This document shows, piece after piece, positions 2,490 to 48,429 of a stretch of 49,410 bases of DNA (the first letter of the stretch is position 1; every line of letters begins with the position of its first letter). The DNA is from a virus: positions 1 to 49,410 of IMG/VR virus record IMGVR_UViG_3300050175_000017; one strand, given 5' to 3'. Under the pieces are notes generated by a model. That model saw only the letters and a list, made by a program, of their open reading frames with translations. It did no database searches and had not been told where the DNA came from. Made by a program: the position numbers and the translations under genes.

Positions 2490-2617
2490 TGACCTGTGCA
2501 CAGTGCTGTGTTGCGTGCGGCATGCTGCAGGGAGTGCGCGCGCGCGCTTAGCACTCGCCACAATGCACGAAGCACGCAGCACGAGCTACACTCGCGGGCC
2601 ACGAAGGGGCGCAGGGG

Positions 2618-3868
2618 ATGGCAGAGCAGACGACAGCAGACGCGAGCGGCGAGGCGGCGGTTTACTACCCGATCGCGAAGCTCAAACCGTGGGCCGACAA
2701 CCCGCGCGACAACGCCGAGAACGTCGCGCGCGTGGCCCGCTCGATCTCGCGGTTCGGGTTCTCGGCGCCCGTCGTCGCACGCAAGGCAGACAGCGAGATC
2801 ATAGCCGGTCACACGCGCGTGCTCGCAGCCGAGTCGCTCGGGCTCGCCGAGGTGCCGGTGCGGTTTCTCGACATCTCGACGCACGACGCGCACGCGCTCG
2901 CCCTGGCGGACAATCGCTTGAACGAGCTAGCGCCTTGGCGCACCGACGAGCTGCTTGCGCAACTGAACGAGATCGGGCTGCCTGATGCCGAGGTCGCAGG
3001 TTGGTCGAGCGAAGACCTCGACAAGCTCGCGGCAGACCTCGTCGGCAGCGAGCCCGACGACGCGGGCAGCGTCGACGAAGACGAAGCGCCCGAGCCACCT
3101 GCAGACCCGGTTACGAGACCGGGCGACGTGTGGCAGCTCGGCAAGCATCGGCTTGTTTGCGGCGACTGCCGCGATGCGCTTGCGCCTCTTTTCGTCGGCG
3201 ACCTCGCGACGCTGATGGTTACCGATCCGCCTTACGGCGTCGACTATGGTGCCAAGAATGCACGACTGAACGCATCAGACGGAGGCAGCCGAATCGAAAC
3301 GACTATCGAAGACGACGACGCGTCGATCGACTATGTTTTCGATCTTTGGGTCGGCGCCTTCAAAGCATCCCGGCCGCTGCTTGCTGCCGGCGCTTCTTAC
3401 TACGTCACGTCGGCAGCGGGCGCTTTTCAGTGGCACATGTGGAAGGCTCTCGAAGAGAGCGGGTTCCCGATGAAGCACGAGCTAGTTTGGAAAAAGAACG
3501 CGATGGTATTCGGCGGCTGCGACTACCACTATCAGCACGAGCCGATCCTTTACGGTTGGATCAAGGGCTCGCACAAGCGCGTCGCCGACCGCTCGCAGAC
3601 ATCGGTGTGGGAGATCGATCGGCCTAGCTCGTCGAAGCTGCACCCGACCATGAAGCCCGTCGAACTGTACGCGCGGGCGATGCGCAATAGCAGCGACCGA
3701 GGCGACATCGCGGTCGAGCCTTTCGCGGGCAGCGGAACGGCATACGCTGCAGCCGAGCAAGTTGGGCGGGTTGTCTATGGGTCGGAGATCTCGCCCGCCT
3801 ACTGCGACGTGATCGTCGAGCGCTGGCAGAACCTCACGGGCGGCAAGGCTACGCGCGTGCAGCCATGA
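2618..3868 (+). CDS. ParB-domain / DNA methyltransferase fusion
   Basis: 416 aa. Residues about 15-110 form a ParB/Srx-like N-terminal domain with the Gly-His-Thr-Arg box (GxxR). Residues about 165-410 form an S-adenosylmethionine-dependent DNA methyltransferase: catalytic DPPY at 203-206 comes before the cofactor-binding FAGSGT at 369-374, the motif order of the beta class (N6-adenine or N4-cytosine). Such fusions are common next to phage terminase genes and are thought to modify phage DNA against restriction. Target site unknown. It is the first gene after the repeat region; its stop overlaps the next start (ATGA). Confidence 0.93.
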   Translation: MAEQTTADASGEAAVYYPIAKLKPWADNPRDNAENVARVARSISRFGFSAPVVARKADSEIIAGHTRVLAAESLGLAEVPVRFLDISTHDAHALALADNRLNELAPWRTDELLAQLNEIGLPDAEVAGWSSEDLDKLAADLVGSEPDDAGSVDEDEAPEPPADPVTRPGDVWQLGKHRLVCGDCRDALAPLFVGDLATLMVTDPPYGVDYGAKNARLNASDGGSRIETTIEDDDASIDYVFDLWVGAFKASRPLLAAGASYYVTSAAGAFQWHMWKALEESGFPMKHELVWKKNAMVFGGCDYHYQHEPILYGWIKGSHKRVADRSQTSVWEIDRPSSSKLHPTMKPVELYARAMRNSSDRGDIAVEPFAGSGTAYAAAEQVGRVVYGSEISPAYCDVIVERWQNLTGGKATRVQP

Positions 3869-4951: not shown

Positions 4952-6515
4952 CGCGGCAGAGTCGGTAAGCGCCGAAGAGCTGCTCGACGTGCTCGACGAC
5001 TTCGAGTCGCTCGCGTCGATCGTTCAGATCACGCAGAAGCAAGGCGCGCCGATGTATTTCTCGCCCGACCGTTGGTTCGACGAACAGCGCCTGTTTCAAG
5101 AACGCCGCACCGGGCTTGATATCGTATTGAAAGGCAGACAGATCGGGTTCTCGACCTTCGAGATGGTGCGCGACCTGCAGTTCGCTTTGACGCACCCTGG
5201 CACGCAGACCTTGATCGTCGGGCAGGAGACCGACCTGGCGAACAAGCTCTTCTTACAGCTGCGAACGATGTGGCTCTCGCTGCGCGAACAGGGCGGCATG
5301 CCCTCGACGCGATACGACAACATCCGCGAGCTTTACTTCGACGGGCTGCAGTCTTCGATACGCGTCGTCGAGGCAGGAGCCTCGAGAGAGGCGGCGCGAA
5401 AGAAGGGGCGGTCGGGCACCATCCATCGGCTGCACGCAACCGAGGTCGCTTTTTGGTCGTACCCTGCCGAGGCGATGTCGGGGCTCATGAATGCCGTTCC
5501 ATCGACGGGCGAGATCGTGATCGAGTCGACGCCGAATGGTGCCTTCGGGATGTTCTACCAACTGTGCAAGCAAGCGCAGAGCGGCGCGGGGCGGTTCCGG
5601 TTCCATTTCTATCCGTGGCACATGCACGCCGAGTATAGGTCGCCGCTCGTGCCTCGGTTCAACCCTGCGCCGCGGGACGCTATCGAGCGCTCACTGCGCG
5701 ACGAGGGCTGCGACGACGAGCAGATACAGTGGTGGCGCGAGCAGTGCGACGACCCTGCGAAAGGCGTCGAGACTGCCAGCGAAGAGTATCCGCGAGATCC
5801 CGAGTCGTGCTTTCGCACCGCGGGCTCGCCGTACATTGACCCGCGACACATCGAGCGGCATCGACGCGACACGCGCGAGCCCGTGGTCGTTCTGCCGATG
5901 CTCGGCGTCGACGTCGAGGTCTTCGAGATGCCGCGCCCCGGTGTCGAGTACGTGGTCGGCGGCGACGTTGCCGAGGGCATCGGCGAAGACAACTCCGCAG
6001 CGACCGTCGAGCGGACGGACACTGGCGCGGTCGTGGCCTACGCATCGTCGGGCAGCATCGAGCCTGGCGAGTTCGGCTTGTTTCTCGGCGAGCTAGGCTC
6101 GTTCTACAATGGCGCGATGGTCGCACCCGAGCGCAACAATCACGGCGCAGCAACGCTATGGGCACTCATGAACACGCCATCGGCGCAGAGCGGCCAGGTG
6201 TACAACGATGCTCGAATCTACAGGCACGCCGACGGCAAGCCGGGCTGGCACACGACGAAGGTCACACGCCCGATCTTGTTCGACGACCTCGCCTCGCGCG
6301 TGCGTGCCGACGACGACCTGCAGTGCCCATCCCGGCGGCTGCTGTCGGAGGCGGCAACGCTCGTGAAGGGCTCAGACGGCAAGCCGCGCGCAGCGAACAA
6401 GGGCAACGCCGACGGCTGCAAGGATGACGGCTTCGTGTCGTGGGCAATCTGCGGGCAGGTGCGGCAGCGACGTCGCGCGGGCCGTCTGCAGTCGTTCCAC
6501 ATCGACGACCTGTAG
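4941..6515 (+). CDS. terL: terminase large subunit (packaging ATPase/nuclease)
   Basis: 524 aa, a usual TerL length. The N-terminal ATPase has a Walker A variant Lys-Gly-Arg-Gln-Ile-Gly-Phe-Ser-Thr at 64-72, a Walker B region with Glu168 in His-Ala-Thr-Glu-Val-Ala, and the coupling motif Glu-Ser-Thr-Pro-Asn-Gly at 195-200. The C-terminal RNase H-like nuclease begins with Gly-Gly-Asp342-Val-Ala-Glu-Gly. The enzyme pumps DNA into the prohead and cuts it. ATG 4941 lies within the small-subunit gene, as is common. Confidence 0.95.
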   Translation: MQGSAAESVSAEELLDVLDDFESLASIVQITQKQGAPMYFSPDRWFDEQRLFQERRTGLDIVLKGRQIGFSTFEMVRDLQFALTHPGTQTLIVGQETDLANKLFLQLRTMWLSLREQGGMPSTRYDNIRELYFDGLQSSIRVVEAGASREAARKKGRSGTIHRLHATEVAFWSYPAEAMSGLMNAVPSTGEIVIESTPNGAFGMFYQLCKQAQSGAGRFRFHFYPWHMHAEYRSPLVPRFNPAPRDAIERSLRDEGCDDEQIQWWREQCDDPAKGVETASEEYPRDPESCFRTAGSPYIDPRHIERHRRDTREPVVVLPMLGVDVEVFEMPRPGVEYVVGGDVAEGIGEDNSAATVERTDTGAVVAYASSGSIEPGEFGLFLGELGSFYNGAMVAPERNNHGAATLWALMNTPSAQSGQVYNDARIYRHADGKPGWHTTKVTRPILFDDLASRVRADDDLQCPSRRLLSEAATLVKGSDGKPRAANKGNADGCKDDGFVSWAICGQVRQRRRAGRLQSFHIDDL

Positions 6516-40741: not shown

Positions 40742-41197
40742 CTACTTACTTACCGGGACGCTAGGCACGAGCCCGCCGGGCTGCCGGTCGAGCACGCGCA
40801 GCTCGGTCGATGCGTTGCGATCATCGATCGTCGTCTCGCCGCCTCGACGCTCGACCTCGCACGTGTAGCGCTCTGCGAGCTGCACGAGCAGCCGAGCCTG
40901 CGGCGTGCTCGCGACGGGCGCTGCGACGCCGCTCGCGCGCCGCCACTCGCCGATGCGCTCGACGATGGCGTCGACCTCGCGCGCCTGCGCGGGCGCCAGC
41001 CTCGCCACGTCGAGCGCCTCGCGCACTGCAGCGCGCGCCCGCGCCTGCATCTGCCCCATCGTCGCGCGTAGCGCCGCGCTCGCGGCTGCCGCCGCCGATG
41101 CCAGCTTTGCGCCCTGCGACGCTGATGTCCTGACAGGGGAATCCGCCGCAGATGAGGTCAACGCGTCGAAGTTTAGCTGCTCCCACTGTGCGGACAT
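40742..41197 (-). CDS. alternative-frame protein overlapping cytosine methyltransferase
   Basis: 151 aa from ATG 41197, preceded by GAAAGG. Residues ~20-25 read Asp-Ser-Pro-Val-Arg-Thr-Ser, encoded by the very bases that encode the methyltransferase catalytic motif Gly-Phe-Pro-Cys-Gln-Asp-Ile in the other frame. Beyond it, the long Ala/Arg/Glu helical region (including Val-Arg-Glu-Ala-Leu-Asp-Val-Ala and Ile-Gly-Glu-Trp-Arg-Arg) looks like a real protein. Phage proteins with a Ser-Pro-x-Arg-Thr-Ser start are common in my memory. It may replace the methyltransferase C-terminal half by overprinting or be joined to it by a frameshift. Confidence 0.6.
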
Positions 41198-41351
41198 CTT
41201 CGAACCTTTCAGCGCCTGGCCAGTGTCGCTCGAGCACTGCGCGACAAAATGGATCGCGCTCGACTTGCCAGACAGTAGTGCCGAGCCCGGCCCGTTCAAG
41301 CCCCAGCTCGAGCCCGCCGATGCCTGAAAAGAGCGAGCCGATCGCCATCAT
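40821..41351 (-). CDS. cytosine-5 DNA methyltransferase, N-terminal half only
   Basis: 176 aa open frame, but resemblance to C5 methyltransferases covers only the first ~88 residues: motif I [13 protein letters not shown], motif II-like Val-Glu-Arg-Asp-Pro-Phe-Cys, and motif IV Gly-Gly-Phe-Pro-Cys73-Gln-Asp-Ile-Ser-Val-Ala-Gly. The usual Glu-Asn-Val (VI), target recognition domain and motifs VIII-X are missing; after Gly-Ile-Gly-Gly-Gly the frame becomes Arg/Ala-rich shadow sequence. Either a decayed enzyme or the first part of a frameshifted product. ATG 41351 follows the previous stop by one base. Confidence 0.7.
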
Positions 41352-41352
41352 A

Positions 41353-41619
41353 TCAGTTCAGCTCTGCGCGCTCTGCGACGCAGCGCGGGCACTGGCATCG
41401 CAGCTCGCTCTCGTCTCGACGCTCGCGACGCTTCGCGCGCTGCTCGTGCAGCTCGAGCGCGCGAATCATTGCATCTGCAATCGCCGACGCTTGCGCGGGC
41501 GTGAGCGTGACGCCCATCTCCTCGCCATCGTCTGCCGTCATCACGAGCTCTGCGCACGACAAGCCGCGCTCGTCTGCGACGGCGTTCGCTTCGAGGTCTA
41601 TGACGCGCCGCCGCTTCAC
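41353..41619 (-). CDS. hypothetical protein with C-terminal Cys cluster
   Basis: 88 aa from a GTG that overlaps the SbcC stop (GTGA). It has [15 protein letters not shown] as a helix, then an Arg/Glu coil ending Cys-Gln-Cys-Pro-Arg-Cys, a possible metal site. Coupled to SbcCD, so possibly a recombination accessory. Not recognised. Confidence 0.55.
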
Positions 41620-44030
41620 GCTTTGACCTCGATGCGCCCGGCAGCGATCTCGATGCGCGCGTCGCAAAGCTCGCGCACGCCCGCGTCGTGCGAGACAACG
41701 AGCGTGCACGCTGCGCCGACAGCCTCGGCAGCACGCCGCAGCATCGCGACGTACGCTCGCCCGTTCTCGGCGTCGAGTGCTGCGCCGCTCTCGTCGCGCA
41801 CGAGGGTCGGCGCAGTGACGCCGCGCCGCCTGCAGGCCACGACCGTAAGCGCCAAGGCGAGCGCCTCGCCAACGATCACGCACTCGCCGCCCGAGTAAGT
41901 CTCGGCGAGATCGTCGCGCCCGCCGACCGTGTCGAGCACGCGCACGTCGAGCCCTTCGAGCGTGCGCTTGCCGTCGGCGCTCGACCGATCGGTGCGCACC
42001 TCGATTGTGAATCGCGAGCCGTGGCAGGTATGCAATAGGTCGTTCGCGAGCGTGTTTATCTCGGGCACCGCTGCGTCGATCTCCATGGCCTGCAGCCCGT
42101 CACGCCCGAGGTCGTCGCCGAGCTTGCCCCAATCGTCACGCTCTGCGCACGCGCTCTGCACCTCGGCGTCGAGCTGCGCTGCGCGAGCGACGTCGCGTTC
42201 GGCGTTGTCGCGCTCGCCTCGCAGCCGCCCTTCGGCAACGCCTAGCCGTGCGAGTTCGCGCTCTGCGCGTTCGAGCGGCGCTCGAACGTTCGCGACGTCG
42301 ATGCTGCCGTCGACCTGCACGTCGGGCGCGCTGTCTAGCTCGTCGCGTCTGCGCTGCTCGTGCGCGACCGCCTCGAGGATGCGCTCGTCGAGCTGCTCGA
42401 TCCGTCCTGCGTCGGCAGACAGTTCGGCGAACCGCGATGCGTCGGCGTTGCAAGCGCGCAGCCGCTCGCCTGCGGCGTCGAGGATCTCGGCGGCGTCTCG
42501 CTCTGCCGCGTCTCGCGATTGAACGAGCACGACCTGCCCGACCTTCGTCTCTTCGAGCGCCGCGCACTGGCGCACGAGCGCCTCGCATCGTTCGAGCAGC
42601 ACTTGCAAGTCGGCGTTCGCCCGTTCGACCTCGCCCGCCCGCGCTGCGAGCAACTGCAGCCGCTCGCACTCGACGCGCGCGACCTCGCTCTGCGTCTGCG
42701 TCTGCTCGATGCGCCCGCCTATCTGCGCGATGCCTGCGACCCGCGCGACGCCCGCGTCGATCTCTTCGTCGTCACGCTGCAGCGTTGCGCCTGCGATGGC
42801 GTCGCTCGCGTCTGCGCCGCTTGCGATACAGTCGAGCGATGCGCGCAGCGCGCGAATCCTTCGGTCGAGCGCGGTCGTCGTGAGCACGACAAGCTCGCCG
42901 CGCTCGGCTTCGAGCTGCACGAGCGCCTCGCGGGCTCGGTCGCGCAGGTCGCGCGCGCCCGGCAGCGCGTGCGCCGCCTCGGCGATCTCGTCGGCTTGCG
43001 ACAGCCTGCGCCGCGCTCGCACGAGGTCTTTGTCGATCTCGAACATCGCCTCGCGCGCAGCGCGCAGCCTGCCCTCGGTCTCGCGCGCCTCGGCGTTCGC
43101 CTGCGCGAGGCGGGCCCGCGCCGCCGCGACCTCGGTCGTAGCGTCTGCGACGCGCTGCCGCAGATAGGGCAGCCGCCCGTGCGCTGCCTCGGCAGGCGCG
43201 AAGAGCCGCTCGTGTCGCTCGACAAGCTCGCGCCGCCGCTCGCGCGCTGTCGTGAGCGCGCGCGTCGCCTGGCGATGGTTGTCGGCTGCGACGCGGTGCG
43301 CTGCGCGCAGCCGCTCTCGCTCTCGCATGTCGGCGGCTGCCTCTTGCGCCCTCGCGAGAGCCATGCGCGCGCCGTCGACCGCGACCTGCGCCGAGGCTTT
43401 CGCGTGCTCGATGTGTCCGAGCTGCTCGTCGAGCGCCGCGACGTCGTGCTCGGCTACCTCGGCACGAACGGCTCGCAGCCTGTCCGATTGATTGCCCGCG
43501 CTTGTGCGCCGCTCACGAGCCCGCGCCGCTAGCTCCTCGAGGCGCTCGCAGCCGAGCATGCGCAGGAGCAACGCTTTGCGCTGGCTTGCCGCGAGGTCGA
43601 GCATCCCGCGCCGACCCTGCGCCGCGAAGCTCGACGCGTACAGTAGCTCGCTCGGCACGAGGTGCTCGGCGCGCCACGTATCGAAGTCGCGCACCTTCCC
43701 GGTGCTCACGACCGCCGAGCCGTCGGCCCGCTCGACGAGCGACTCGGACTTGCCGGTGTTCGGGTCGAACACGTGCCGGAGCCGATACACCTCGCCATCC
43801 TCGACGACGAGGTCGAGGCTCGCGTGCGGCGACGTCGCCAGGCCGCTCACGCGACCACGCGTCGGGCACGTGCGATAGACGCCGCCCGCGAGCAACTCCA
43901 GTAGCGTGGACTTTCCTGCGCCGTTCGCGCCGCAGACAGCGACGAGCTTGCCCTGCAGCTCGCGCAGGTCGAGCGAGTGTTCGCCCTTGAATGGCCCGAT
44001 ATCTCGGACCGCGATGCTGTGAAATTTCAT
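41616..44030 (-). CDS. sbcC: SbcC/Rad50-like ATPase
   Basis: 804 aa (cellular SbcC is about 1050). Walker A Gly-Ala-Asn-Gly-Ala-Gly-Lys-Ser-Thr at 34-42; ABC signature Ser-Gly-Gly-Glu at 713-716; Walker B Leu-Val-Arg-Asp746-Glu747 with Ser-Gly-Ala-Ala-Leu-Asp; H-loop His781. Between them lie two long coiled-coil arms. No Cys-x2-Cys zinc hook is seen at the centre. With SbcD it forms a nuclease that opens hairpins and blocked ends and, in phages, supports recombination-dependent replication. It starts by ATGA overlap with sbcD. Confidence 0.9.
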   Translation of the reverse strand: MKFHSIAVRDIGPFKGEHSLDLRELQGKLVAVCGANGAGKSTLLELLAGGVYRTCPTRGRVSGLATSPHASLDLVVEDGEVYRLRHVFDPNTGKSESLVERADGSAVVSTGKVRDFDTWRAEHLVPSELLYASSFAAQGRRGMLDLAASQRKALLLRMLGCERLEELAARARERRTSAGNQSDRLRAVRAEVAEHDVAALDEQLGHIEHAKASAQVAVDGARMALARAQEAAADMRERERLRAAHRVAADNHRQATRALTTARERRRELVERHERLFAPAEAAHGRLPYLRQRVADATTEVAAARARLAQANAEARETEGRLRAAREAMFEIDKDLVRARRRLSQADEIAEAAHALPGARDLRDRAREALVQLEAERGELVVLTTTALDRRIRALRASLDCIASGADASDAIAGATLQRDDEEIDAGVARVAGIAQIGGRIEQTQTQSEVARVECERLQLLAARAGEVERANADLQVLLERCEALVRQCAALEETKVGQVVLVQSRDAAERDAAEILDAAGERLRACNADASRFAELSADAGRIEQLDERILEAVAHEQRRRDELDSAPDVQVDGSIDVANVRAPLERAERELARLGVAEGRLRGERDNAERDVARAAQLDAEVQSACAERDDWGKLGDDLGRDGLQAMEIDAAVPEINTLANDLLHTCHGSRFTIEVRTDRSSADGKRTLEGLDVRVLDTVGGRDDLAETYSGGECVIVGEALALALTVVACRRRGVTAPTLVRDESGAALDAENGRAYVAMLRRAAEAVGAACTLVVSHDAGVRELCDARIEIAAGRIEVKA

Positions 44031-45193
44031 GTGGTGGTATCCCCCTGCAGATCCCGCGCTTTGGATAGCAGCTCGCGCGCACGTTGCACAGTGAACGTGT
44101 CACCCCGCACTTGCCACAATGCACGCAGCTTGTCTTCGAGCGTGCGCGCCGCCGCGATCTCTGGCGCCCGGGCTTGCGCCGTCGTCTGCACGACCGCCTC
44201 GACCTTCACGACTGCCGCACCTCGACGCACGAGATTCTCGCGTGCGTGCTCGGCTGCGAGCGCAGCGACCGAGCGCTCGTCGGCGGCGACTGAATAGCGC
44301 AGACGGATCTCGGCGCCGCTCACATCTTCGGGCAGCTCGTCGCGCCATTCGAGCTGCTCGTCGCACCACTCGCCGTCGACGAGGTGCATCGCCGCGCACG
44401 GCGTCTCGATGATCTCCCACGTCGGCACGCAGTCGGCGTCGAAGTCGATCAACGCGAAGCCCTTCGGCTCGACCTCGCCGAACGCGGTGCGCCGAGGCGA
44501 ACCCGGATAGACGACCGGGCGCTCGTCGTGCGTCCACGACTGCCCCTTGTGTATGTGCCCGAGCGCGACGAGGTCTGCGCCGGTCGCTGCGAGTTCGTCG
44601 AATCCGATCTCGAAGTCGCAGCCGACGAGCGGCTGCCCGGTCGACGTGGTCGAGCCGCGTACCATGGCGTGCGCGAGCAGTATGCGAGGCACGTCGGCGT
44701 GCGCGAGCTCGCCCATCTCGTGACCGAGCCCGCGCAGCACGTCGCGCAGCGCGTCGCCTGCAGCCGCCTCGGCAGTCGCTCGCGTGCCTGCCATCGTGAG
44801 CACGCCCGACCTCGAGGGCCACGCAAGCGCACCGACGACGCAGCCGCCGACCTCGTGCACGCCGCACTGCTCCTCGACGATGATCTCGAACAGCGTGTCG
44901 AGCGCCCGCAGCGCGGCGAGTTCTTTGTCGCGGTCGTGGTTTCCTTTCACGACGACGACGGGCGCAATCTGCGCGAGCCGCTGAAACCACATGAACACCG
45001 CGAGCCGCTCTTCGGCGGTCGAGCGCCGCTCGAACACATCGCCGCCGTGCAGTATCAGGTCGCAGTCGCGCTCGGCGATCTGCTCTGCGATCCAATCGTG
45101 CACGGCGCAGCACTCGACGAACCGCCCGCCTGGCGAGCTATCGAAGTGCGAATCGGAGATCAACGCGACGCGCGGGCCCTTGCGCATGTTCAC
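44027..45193 (-). CDS. sbcD: SbcD/Mre11-like nuclease
   Basis: 388 aa from a GTG overlapping the previous stop (GTGA); an ATG at 45187 is a close alternative. All metallophosphoesterase motifs are present: Asp14-x-His16, Gly-Gly-Asp52, Gly-Asn-His86-Asp87, His175 in Leu-Ala-His-Ala-Met, and Gly-His213-Ile-His215. It has the capping region and a C-terminal helical tail (about 325-388) for SbcC contact. Manganese-dependent nuclease partner of the adjacent SbcC. Confidence 0.92.
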   Translation of the reverse strand: MNMRKGPRVALISDSHFDSSPGGRFVECCAVHDWIAEQIAERDCDLILHGGDVFERRSTAEERLAVFMWFQRLAQIAPVVVVKGNHDRDKELAALRALDTLFEIIVEEQCGVHEVGGCVVGALAWPSRSGVLTMAGTRATAEAAAGDALRDVLRGLGHEMGELAHADVPRILLAHAMVRGSTTSTGQPLVGCDFEIGFDELAATGADLVALGHIHKGQSWTHDERPVVYPGSPRRTAFGEVEPKGFALIDFDADCVPTWEIIETPCAAMHLVDGEWCDEQLEWRDELPEDVSGAEIRLRYSVAADERSVAALAAEHARENLVRRGAAVVKVEAVVQTTAQARAPEIAAARTLEDKLRALWQVRGDTFTVQRARELLSKARDLQGDTTT

Positions 45194-45468
45194 GAGGCAC
45201 CGCCCTTCGAGCCTTCGCGAATCATACGATCCCAAATGTCGCCGACCGACTCGCCGAGATCCGCATCGCGCCCGCGCTCGATGGCCCGGCGCAGGGCATC
45301 GGCCTCGGCTTCGATTATCGCGAGCGACAACTGCAGCGTGCATACGTGGCGCGGCTCGTTGTCGCGCCACTGCGCGATCAGGTTTGCCGCGACGCCCAAG
45401 CGACCCATCGGCGTCATTCGAGCGAGCTGCTGCTCGAACGCGGCGAGCGCATCGTCGACCGCAGTCAT
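45190..45468 (-). CDS. small helical protein upstream of sbcD
   Basis: 92 aa, nearly all helical with heptad-like Leu/Ala/Ile spacing and no cysteine cluster. It overlaps both neighbours by four bases (ATGA and GTGA), so it is made with the recombination genes. Unknown function. Confidence 0.6.
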   Translation of the reverse strand: MTAVDDALAAFEQQLARMTPMGRLGVAANLIAQWRDNEPRHVCTLQLSLAIIEAEADALRRAIERGRDADLGESVGDIWDRMIREGSKGGAS

Positions 45469-46490
45469 CGCGCACCTGCAGCGCGACGATCGATCTCGTT
45501 CTCGATGGCGGCGATCATGCGCTCGTCGGCGTCGCGCGAGTTGCTCGTGCCTTCGTCGAGCGCAGCCGACAGCGAGTTTGCCGCGTCGAGTAGCTCGCCG
45601 TTGGCAGCCTGCGCGAGCGTCGTGCCCGAAGGCAGTGCGTTCGGCGGCGCCTCGAAGCGCCCGACCGGCGGCGTCTCGTCGTCGTACGTCGAGCCCACGG
45701 GCGGCGGCGGTGTGTGCGCCATGAGGGCAGCGGGCGGCGCGGCGCTCGCGCCAAGGACTGGCGCGCCGCTATTGCCGAAGAGCGCGCTGCGCCCTTGCAT
45801 CATCGATCGCGCGGTCATCATTGCGAACTCGCGCCGCAGCACCGGGTCGCGCGTCTCGCCCGTGAACATCAGGCGCGCGACCACGAACGGTTTCTGCAGC
45901 TCGTCGGTCGAGTAACCGGTGCGCACGCCGAGCGAGCGCACGGCCCGGAGCTGCGCCTTGGTCTCGGCGTGCGATTGAATGTGCAATCGCATCTCTTGAA
46001 TCTGCAAGCCTGCGCGCCCGGCCCGCCCCTTCGACGCAGCACGCGCGTTCAACGCGTCGACCTGCGCGCTGCCCTCGCGCAAGTCCATCTCCTTTTCAGC
46101 GACGATAGTCTGCCGCGTGCCGTCGAACGCGACGTAGAAACCGACCGCGCGCCAGCGACAATAATGCGGATGCGAGCCGTCATCGAGGCGCCCGCTCGCC
46201 ATGGGATCCCACGATATGCCGGCAGCCGCGGCGATCTTCTGCAGGGTGCTCTTTCCGAGCCCATAGTTACCGTTGCCGGTCGAGTAGCAATCGCTGCCGG
46301 CCCACACACGAGCGAACGAGACGGCGCAGCCTTCGGGCAGTGTGCCGACCGTCGGCGACGGTGCGACTAGGTTCGCCTCGCCGCTCGTCGCAGCCCACTG
46401 CATGCGCCCGCCCGTGTCCTTCGGGTCGCTATACGTGCCGTCGAGTCGGTCGGCGGCTTTCTTTGCTAGCTTGTTCTGTTGCTCTGACAT
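45465..46490 (-). CDS. candidate recombination protein (possible ssDNA-annealing/mediator)
   Basis: 341 aa with a strong GGAGAGAG before ATG 46490. Features: Leu-Gly-Lys-Ser-Thr-Leu-Gln-Lys-Ile-Ala-Ala-Ala-Ala-Gly-Ile, His-Pro-His-Tyr-Cys-Arg-Trp-Arg-Ala-Val-Gly-Phe, Glu-Lys-Glu-Met-Asp-Leu-Arg, His-Ala-Glu-Thr-Lys-Ala-Gln-Leu-Arg-Ala, then a Pro-rich linker and acidic helical tail, as in many ssDNA-associated proteins. The repeated early Ile-Ala-x-Ala-Ala-Gly and central beta/alpha pattern recalls RecT/Erf-type proteins in outline only. Leading the SbcCD operon supports a recombination role; family not identified. Confidence 0.5.
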   Translation of the reverse strand: MSEQQNKLAKKAADRLDGTYSDPKDTGGRMQWAATSGEANLVAPSPTVGTLPEGCAVSFARVWAGSDCYSTGNGNYGLGKSTLQKIAAAAGISWDPMASGRLDDGSHPHYCRWRAVGFYVAFDGTRQTIVAEKEMDLREGSAQVDALNARAASKGRAGRAGLQIQEMRLHIQSHAETKAQLRAVRSLGVRTGYSTDELQKPFVVARLMFTGETRDPVLRREFAMMTARSMMQGRSALFGNSGAPVLGASAAPPAALMAHTPPPPVGSTYDDETPPVGRFEAPPNALPSGTTLAQAANGELLDAANSLSAALDEGTSNSRDADERMIAAIENEIDRRAAGAR

Positions 46491-46513
46491 TTCTCTCTCC
46501 TTTGTTGGTTTGT

Positions 46514-46711
46514 TTAGTCGTTGTGTTCGCGCAGTCGCGAGAGCGCGACACGCCGCGCCCATCCTTCGGACATTGCGATCGCGACCGTGCGACCGGTGCG
46601 CAGCTCTGCGACGCGCCAGCCTGCCGCAGTGCGCTCGATGCGCAGCCATTTACCCTCGACGACGAGCGTCCAACTGCGCCCGCTCGTCGCGCCCTCGCTG
46701 TAAGATTTCAC
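46514..46711 (-). CDS. small beta-rich protein, first gene of minus block
   Basis: 65 aa from GTG 46711 with a GGTG-like site upstream. Two or three strands (Trp-Thr-Leu-Val-Val-Glu-Gly, Trp-Leu-Arg-Ile-Glu-Arg, Trp-Arg-Val-Ala-Glu-Leu) and a basic helical end. A longer version starting at 46810 is possible but would cover the operator-like site, so the shorter form is preferred. Unknown function. Confidence 0.5.
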   Translation of the reverse strand: MKSYSEGATSGRSWTLVVEGKWLRIERTAAGWRVAELRTGRTVAIAMSEGWARRVALSRLREHND

Positions 46712-47086: not shown

Positions 47087-47341
47087 ATGGTAAAACCGGG
47101 GGGCGTATTTAGCCGCTGTCCACTTGTGCGGCTGCACAATCTTCTGCGCGTGCTCGACGACGACGAGAGCGTCTCGTTCTCGCTTGGCGCGCCGCTCGGA
47201 CCGTTGCCCTCGGCGGCATGGGTCGACGAGGTCGGCGCGCATCGCGTCTGCGCACCGACGCGACCCGAGTCATGCGATGACACTGCAGAGATGTTGTACG
47301 GGCTCATCGTCGACGAGGTAAGAGCAACATGGAATCCATGA
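47087..47341 (+). CDS. hypothetical protein between regulators
   Basis: 84 aa. Val-Lys-Pro-Gly-Gly-Val start, Leu-Leu-Arg-Val-Leu-Asp-Asp-Asp-Glu-Ser in the middle and a helical end; no motif. It overlaps the next gene by 13 bases. Unknown function. Confidence 0.5.
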   Translation: MVKPGGVFSRCPLVRLHNLLRVLDDDESVSFSLGAPLGPLPSAAWVDEVGAHRVCAPTRPESCDDTAEMLYGLIVDEVRATWNP

Positions 47342-48429
47342 CGTTTCAGCGCGCAGTGGGGCACGTGCTAGATCGGCTGCGACACGAGCACGGGCTTACC
47401 CGCACCGAAGTCGCGCGGCGTGCGAGCGTGAGTCGCACGACTTACGCACGGCAAGAGGCGGGCGCGCAAGTCGCCTCGCTGGAAACACTCGAAGCGATCG
47501 CGCTCGCCTTCGAGGTGCCGCTCTCGCGGCTCATAAGTGCAGCCGAAGACTTGCAGCATTGCGGCGAGCCCGCCGACCGCGCTATGACCGCCGACGCAGG
47601 CGGCGCGGGGTCGACTGCATGCTCGCAGCCGACGCGCAGTGCATTCCCTGTGTCACAGCGCAGCCCCGCGCCGCCCGCACCTGTCGACCTCCGCCTCGGT
47701 CGCTGGCAAGACGTGCTCGCAGACGTCGGTAGTGTGGACGCATTGATCGTGGATGCGCCGTACAGTGCTCGCACGCACGTCGCCTATCGTTCGATGCCGA
47801 GCGTCGGGCGCGAGGCGATAACTTATAGCGCCTGGGATTCCGATGACGTCGATCGCTTCGTGGCCTACTGGGCGCCGCGCACGCGTGGATGGTTTGCAAC
47901 CCTTACGGATCACAATCTCGCGCCTGCATGGGAAGCCGCGCTCACCCTTGCGGGTCGATATGTGTTCGCGCCGCTCGCGTGCATGGAGCCGGGATCGCGC
48001 GTGCGGCTAAGCGGCGATGGGCCTGCGCAGTGGTCCGTTCAGCTTATCGTTTCTCGCCCGAAAAACCGCACGATGCAAAAATGGGGGGCGCTGCCCGGAG
48101 GCTATGTCGTGGAGGCTCGCGACGGATGGCGAGGCGTCACGGGTGGGCGCAGCGGCGTGATGGGCGGCAAGCCGCTCTCGCTGATGCGCGCGCTCGTGCG
48201 CGACTATTCGCGCCCTGGCGATCTCATCTGCGACCCGTGTGCGGGGGGCGGTACGACGCTGCTCGCTGCGGCGATCGAGGGCAGGCGCGCAGTCGGCGCG
48301 GAGGTCGACCCTGCGCATTTTGAGATCGCGCAGAAGCGATTCGCGCGCGGCTACACGCCCGACTTGTTCACGCAGCAACCCGGCGCAGAGCGACCGGTCG
48401 AGCAGATCTCGCTCGACATCGAAGATTGA
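47329..48429 (+). CDS. XRE HTH - DNA methyltransferase fusion
   Basis: 366 aa. Residues about 8-70 are an XRE helix-turn-helix (Leu-Thr-Arg-Thr-Glu-Val-Ala-Arg-Arg-Ala-Ser-Val-Ser-Arg-Thr-Thr-Tyr-Ala-Arg-Gln-Glu). After a Pro/Ala linker, a beta-class methyltransferase follows: Val-Asp142-Ala-Pro-Tyr145 (DPPY-type, with Ala for Pro) and, later, Cys-Asp-Pro-Cys-Ala-Gly-Gly-Gly-Thr (301-309) for cofactor binding. The C-terminus may hold target contacts. ATG 47329 (47338 also possible). An HTH could let the enzyme regulate its own promoter, as known for some C5 methyltransferases, or aim it at a site. Confidence 0.85.
   Translation: MESMTFQRAVGHVLDRLRHEHGLTRTEVARRASVSRTTYARQEAGAQVASLETLEAIALAFEVPLSRLISAAEDLQHCGEPADRAMTADAGGAGSTACSQPTRSAFPVSQRSPAPPAPVDLRLGRWQDVLADVGSVDALIVDAPYSARTHVAYRSMPSVGREAITYSAWDSDDVDRFVAYWAPRTRGWFATLTDHNLAPAWEAALTLAGRYVFAPLACMEPGSRVRLSGDGPAQWSVQLIVSRPKNRTMQKWGALPGGYVVEARDGWRGVTGGRSGVMGGKPLSLMRALVRDYSRPGDLICDPCAGGGTTLLAAAIEGRRAVGAEVDPAHFEIAQKRFARGYTPDLFTQQPGAERPVEQISLDIED

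Follow-up and report, generated by a model that had tools for sequence, protein, structure and literature searches.

The window, the complete 49,410-nt stretch of viral DNA analysed here, very probably carries the 5′ end of a phage C5-methyltransferase (dcm) gene of the dual-frame kind, a remnant fused at about codon 88 to a small helical gene unrelated to it. We observed the truncation and the junction in the window itself, and dual coding, together with its map, in the relatives. A hidden second protein in the methyltransferase gene is a widespread phage arrangement, and the odd second reading of the window is a leftover of it.

Long same-strand nested genes are thought to be rare in bacteria and phages. 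The one described here lies within the gene of a common enzyme and occurs in hundreds of phage and bacterial contigs; Pfam and NCBIfam models gave no match to either of two kinds of nested protein in the examples tested. Because single-frame annotation drops the other frame, many phage methyltransferases have probably been recorded without their target-recognition subunit. The nested methyltransferase pair lends itself to clean tests of dual coding and of the way in which an enzyme can become split through a frame change.

The methyltransferase fragment and its junction

The fragment occupies positions 41091–41351 of the minus strand (codons 1 to ~87, motifs I–IV) and is recognized by PF00145, by phrog_363 and by 80 viral loci with 51–76% identity to its first 87 residues. 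It begins a 176-aa ORF (40821–41351, minus strand) that continues after ~41090 as a non-homologous tail without a coding profile in this frame. The ORF matches PF00145 over profile positions 1–85 only (E = 2e-21) and phrog_363 over positions 53–139 of 327 (E = 1e-32). Both motif I (FSGIGG) and motif IV (GFPCQDI, 41124–41144, minus strand), with the catalytic Cys73 in GFPCQ, are present, and a six-frame search of the whole contig (E ≤ 10) found no further PF00145 piece, bearing out the first-pass annotation of an enzyme that keeps motifs I–IV and loses the later ones. Homology to the relatives stops at AGIGG, at about codon 88, and the approximate junction falls in a GGCGGCGGC run (41082–41094, minus strand) where the relatives go on with GxxSGLW/F; relatives that do not run into a contig edge are at least 231 aa long. 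Given this end of homology, the length of the relatives and the lack of a second PF00145 piece, the window enzyme is truncated and no single indel restores it. Judged by its sequence, the alpha chain of the window is a dead fragment without motif VI, VIII, IX or X. Its closest relatives (L003, L005, L012 and L019) are of the dual-frame type. Elsewhere in the window, a methyltransferase-like gene at 2618–3868 is a ParB–methyltransferase fusion (phrog_498), and an HTH protein at 47329–48429 has a methyltransferase C-terminal stretch (phrog_67).

The second frame, said to run for 151 codons from an ATG inside the fragment, does so: the +1-frame ORF, a nested-gene start joined to a helical part, extends on the minus strand from ATG 41197 to a stop at 40742 (40742–41197, 151 aa). 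This ATG lies 18 codons before motif IV, where the relatives place their nested start, and 7 bases ahead of it is a Shine–Dalgarno-like AAAGG (41205–41209, minus strand); in the relatives, such starts are enriched at the same distance from motif IV. The phage may use ATG 41197, as this one AAAGG and its position suggest. The +1 frame is also open for 34 codons upstream, from a TTG, and the helical part, marked by its codon-position signal (40742–41061, minus strand), has an alternative start, ATG 41059, without a Shine–Dalgarno site.

Upstream of ~41090, in the dcm part, GC3 is low by the standard of this genome. After ~41090, GC by codon position is.79/.57/.87 in the +1 frame, which resembles the genes of this phage, versus.90/.81/.60 in the dcm frame, which does not. 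Because the coding signal from ~41090 to 40760 sits in the +1 frame, we read the locus as a dcm fragment plus an unrelated helical gene and not as a frameshifted enzyme. The earlier impression that a long helical second half looks real agrees with this profile and with a single-sequence AF2 model of the 151-aa ORF, mostly helix at low confidence (pLDDT 60); folds of this ORF and of the beta alignment (pLDDT 52) were judged too uncertain for a fold search. It is exceedingly improbable that the two frames make one protein by frameshift, as had been offered, or that an indel broke a full-length enzyme: two open frames do overlap at the locus, but motifs VI, VIII, IX and X occur in no frame of the contig, and the +1 part past the junction resembles no methyltransferase; a fused product without activity is conceivable.

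The +1 ORF of the window matched neither phrog_1008 nor phrog_16143. Viral pattern scans, phage tblastn and the sister phage contig L083 yielded no relatives of the helical part, and PDB sequence searches returned nothing meaningful. The target-recognition region (TRD) and motif IX that relatives encode in +1 are absent from the window copy, which has the unrelated helical part instead. On the simplest reading, an acquired dcm 5′ piece would have been joined to a resident helical gene at about codon 88. As the helical part has no known relative, the junction could instead be an assembly chimera of two phages. The source is a metagenome contig, the sister phage has no dcm, the junction lies within the GGCGGCGGC run and base composition differs across it; the +1 frame is nonetheless open across the junction and an operon-like gene order goes on either side, neither of which weighs strongly, and we consider a chimera unlikely on balance. 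Window and sister phage share a block of SbcC-like and SbcD-like genes and a phrog_13782 protein (window 41616–46649; L083:1–5516), downstream of which L083 has a ParB-like gene.

Dual coding in intact relatives

On comparative evidence, the +1 frame of the relatives of the window dcm is a real nested gene, translated from a start just ahead of motif IV. The upstream part of these genes served as control; because the genes are related, and the pairs among them not independent, the numbers below are effect sizes, not exact probabilities.

First, the +1 frame avoids stops. In 78 genes, with expectations from synonymous shuffling, motifs I–IV contain 203 stops in +1 against 203.2 expected, the stretch from motif IV to near VIII contains 7 against 91.8, and the surroundings of motif VIII contain 1 against 47.7. 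Depletion sets in ~20 codons before motif IV and has no comparable counterpart in the +2 frame.

Second, starts preceded by a Shine–Dalgarno sequence are enriched in the same place, at −30 to −12 codons (19 versus 7.2) and −12 to 0 codons (24 versus 17.1) from motif IV; among the other bins, only that at 0 to 25 codons shows an excess, with the longer Shine–Dalgarno match only (15 versus 6.4). A conserved ATG near motif VIII, itself enriched, was considered as the main nested start and rejected, because stop depletion and Shine–Dalgarno enrichment begin near motif IV.

Third, the phase of substitution, at first that of frame 0, is that of +1 across the TRD and motif IX and reverts at motif X. 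The shares at frame-0 positions 1/2/3 are.22/.15/.64 in motifs I–IV,.50/.19/.31 in the TRD,.52/.21/.27 in motif IX and.23/.14/.63 at motif X; the TRD and motif IX are coded mainly in +1. Divergence at fourfold sites follows the same map, with.58 before motif IV,.35 at V–VI,.16 in the TRD,.024 in motif IX and.49 at motif X.

Fourth, six synonymous positions at motif IX hardly vary or do not vary at all among 96 genes, whose contigs span 32–68% GC and which were chosen by a frame-0 EP[DE]VGRVA with motif X downstream in frame 0. Pro CCC, Val GTG, Arg NGA, the second Val GTG and Ala GCT are each found in 96/96 and Gly GGT in 95/96, against backgrounds of.29,.27,.47,.27,.19 and.14, respectively; they are frozen because the +1 frame reads LNPxWVEWLMG.

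Our initial view of the +1 frame as a meaningless shadow was ruled out by the frozen codons, the phase switch and the stop depletion. That it is pure shadow everywhere, left open by codon usage and without a nested protein, is very unlikely: the residues read over motif IV do follow from that motif, unselected, but the three signals just named and the Shine–Dalgarno enrichment recur in the relatives, also in genes below 50% GC. The N-terminus of the nested protein shows stop avoidance but no amino-acid selection before motifs V–VI.

Where viral dcm genes are intact, their long +1 ORFs match phrog_1008 (E = 4e-34), and at 150 viral sites beta lies in +1 with alpha open to motif X. Most relatives have motif X in frame 0, whereas the +1 frame carries PTPT repeats and LNPTWVEWLMGFPxGWT and then stops. 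In the Mycobacterium phage TiroTheta9 (gp78/gp77) and the Arthrobacter phage RedFox (gp42/gp43), frame 0 ends a short way past motif VIII, and the annotated +1 gene supplies PTP repeats, then LNAAFSEWMMG or LSARFTEWMMG, which resembles motif IX, and then motif X.

The second-frame residues over motif IV were taken in the first-pass annotation for a Ser-Pro-x-Arg-Thr-Ser (SPxRTS) start common among poorly described phage proteins. The codon reading itself is right: GGA TTC CCC TGT CAG GAC ATC, read one step on as GAT TCC CCT GTC AGG ACA TC. (41143–41123, minus strand), gives DSPVRTS, the forced +1 reading of GFPCQDI. Among 71 dcm relatives picked by N-terminal similarity, SP appears in the +1 reading of motif IV in 31 and SPx[R/K]T in 22, and in intact relatives the +1 reading over GFPCQD shifts with codon usage, which by itself accounts for the motif. 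Motif IV codons of relatives are not frozen, and divergence at their fourfold sites is as high as upstream (.599 versus.559 in the same pairs); the seven residues therefore have no selection of their own, which rules out SPxRTS as a selected motif. The predicted overlap with motif IV does hold among the matches listed: in a DNA scan of viral contigs, 67 of 119 DSP[VA]-type matches lie on GFPCQ. The others listed are mainly DSPASTSA (Ser-Thr) tail proteins, which come in because the degenerate codon of the scan also permits Ser, or short or startless frames, and the Arg-type ones listed off GFPCQ are short, startless or deep within another frame. In the nested protein SPxRTS forms the N-terminal stretch; it is translated, but its residues are set by the catalytic motif that the other frame encodes.

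The proposal that this protein class arose by overprinting of a methyltransferase stands in part. The first half of the nested protein does overlie the methyltransferase in the relatives, but in the main family (family 1) the second half is no new protein: it consists of the enzyme's own TRD and motif IX, like the second chain of split methyltransferases. The window has in its place an unrelated gene, attached at about codon 88.

A second nested family and bacterial loci

A second dcm clade (viral contigs L406–L493) has another nested +1 protein, of ~150 aa, with a SPKACxGILRR site (SPKACAGILRR) within its end, YYLSPKACxGILRRAExRGKxLPxxLxxAL; examples are the nested ORFs at L410:7662-8084 and L411:10608-11051, both on the plus strand. 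From about motif IV to 20 codons past the site there are 7 stops in +1 against about 213 expected, with numbers near or above expectation outside this stretch. Fourfold divergence falls to.05 at the site, on which the search pattern was selected, so that the flanks are the fair evidence. Starts with a Shine–Dalgarno match of at least 5 bases are in excess in the 12 codons before motif IV (22 versus 5.3) and again at 50 to 75 codons (22 versus 10.6). Three of these proteins matched phrog_16143 only, with no Pfam or NCBIfam match. The host enzymes mostly retain their own motif IX (65/85) and motif X (70/85) in frame 0, and the second nested protein should therefore be a separate one. The two families align over the part overlying motifs IV–VIII (hhalign probability 97%), as should be the case for frames read from homologous DNA. 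It is an evenly balanced possibility, from these sequence patterns, that nested +1 proteins starting at motif IV come in at least two kinds in phage C5-methyltransferase genes, one a target-recognition half and the other a separate undescribed protein (such as a specificity modifier or regulator), and that in the window an unrelated domain has taken over a nested start of this sort.

In GTDB genomes, a scan with the nested alignment found 355 relatives. Among the best 80, the nested frame lies in +1 in 69, with alpha open to motif X in 63 of these, and 2 are single-frame. Our script recognized no motif I–motif IV pair in another 9; on inspection each of these has an overlapping alpha-frame ORF, and 3 of them run off a contig edge. 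Homologues of the second frame far from any methyltransferase, which would have spoken against an origin within that gene, were not seen: none of these best 80 of 355 loci is a free-standing copy.

Frame usage is labile. In the dcm genes of L379 (~2490–3330) and L060 (~5210–6000) the frame switches immediately ahead of motif IX: the PTPT repeats are in +1, but motifs IX and X are in frame 0. The nested +1 ORF of L030 (505–1927, plus strand) and L416 extends to a canonical motif IX (RRLTPxECERLQGxPDGWT), with motif X of L030 in frame 0. At L020:607-1909 (plus strand), the dcm has GFPSQ, the catalytic Cys being replaced by Ser; its frame 0 ends in LNPRFVEWLMGFPIGWTEL, and motif X is found in the +2 frame.

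Likeness to split methyltransferases

The small gene of M.EcoHK31I sits inside the large gene in another frame, and M.AquI is a methyltransferase split between motif VIII and the TRD. M.EcoHK31I consists of two polypeptides, the large chain with motifs I–VIII and X, and motif IX in the small chain only (PMC3404938), and has been termed naturally split (PMC3439449). Intact relatives of the window dcm have this same layout, with motifs I–VIII and X in one frame and IX in the second. They differ in that the M.EcoHK31I TRD is predicted in the large chain (PMC3404938), whereas their stretch between motifs VIII and IX is mainly coded in +1; the window copy differs further, lacking everything after motif IV. 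TiroTheta9 and RedFox are closer to M.AquI: one gene has motifs I–VIII, and TRD, IX and X belong to the gene that follows, which is mostly downstream and not nested over motif IV.

In the intact relatives a single DNA stretch gives two proteins: alpha, in frame 0, with motifs I–VIII and X, and nested beta, in +1, which begins a little ahead of motif IV with a ribosome-binding site of its own and carries the target-recognition region and motif IX. Alpha and beta presumably assemble into one enzyme, by analogy with M.EcoHK31I. In the window, deletion or recombination at about codon 88 would have joined the dcm 5′ part to the helical gene, and the surviving nested start signals share the frame of the foreign helical part, whose translation they may now drive. 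The 151-aa ORF might then be a functional new fusion of nested-gene start and helical domain, kept by selection, which is possible if doubtful. The junction is in frame, a Shine–Dalgarno-like site and ATG stand at the expected place, and the ORF is intact with a native codon profile past the junction; but frame agreement has a one-in-three chance, the ORF is without relatives, and selection cannot be tested on a single copy.

phrog_1008 and phrog_16143, both labelled DNA methyltransferase, match the +1 proteins of families 1 and 2, respectively; the label stems from annotation, and these chains are without catalytic motifs. A protein hidden in another frame of a phage methylase gene is also found in ShiLan, as an out-of-frame HNH endonuclease (PMC11855218); that is a homing insertion, whereas here the nested frame overlies the enzyme's own conserved motifs.
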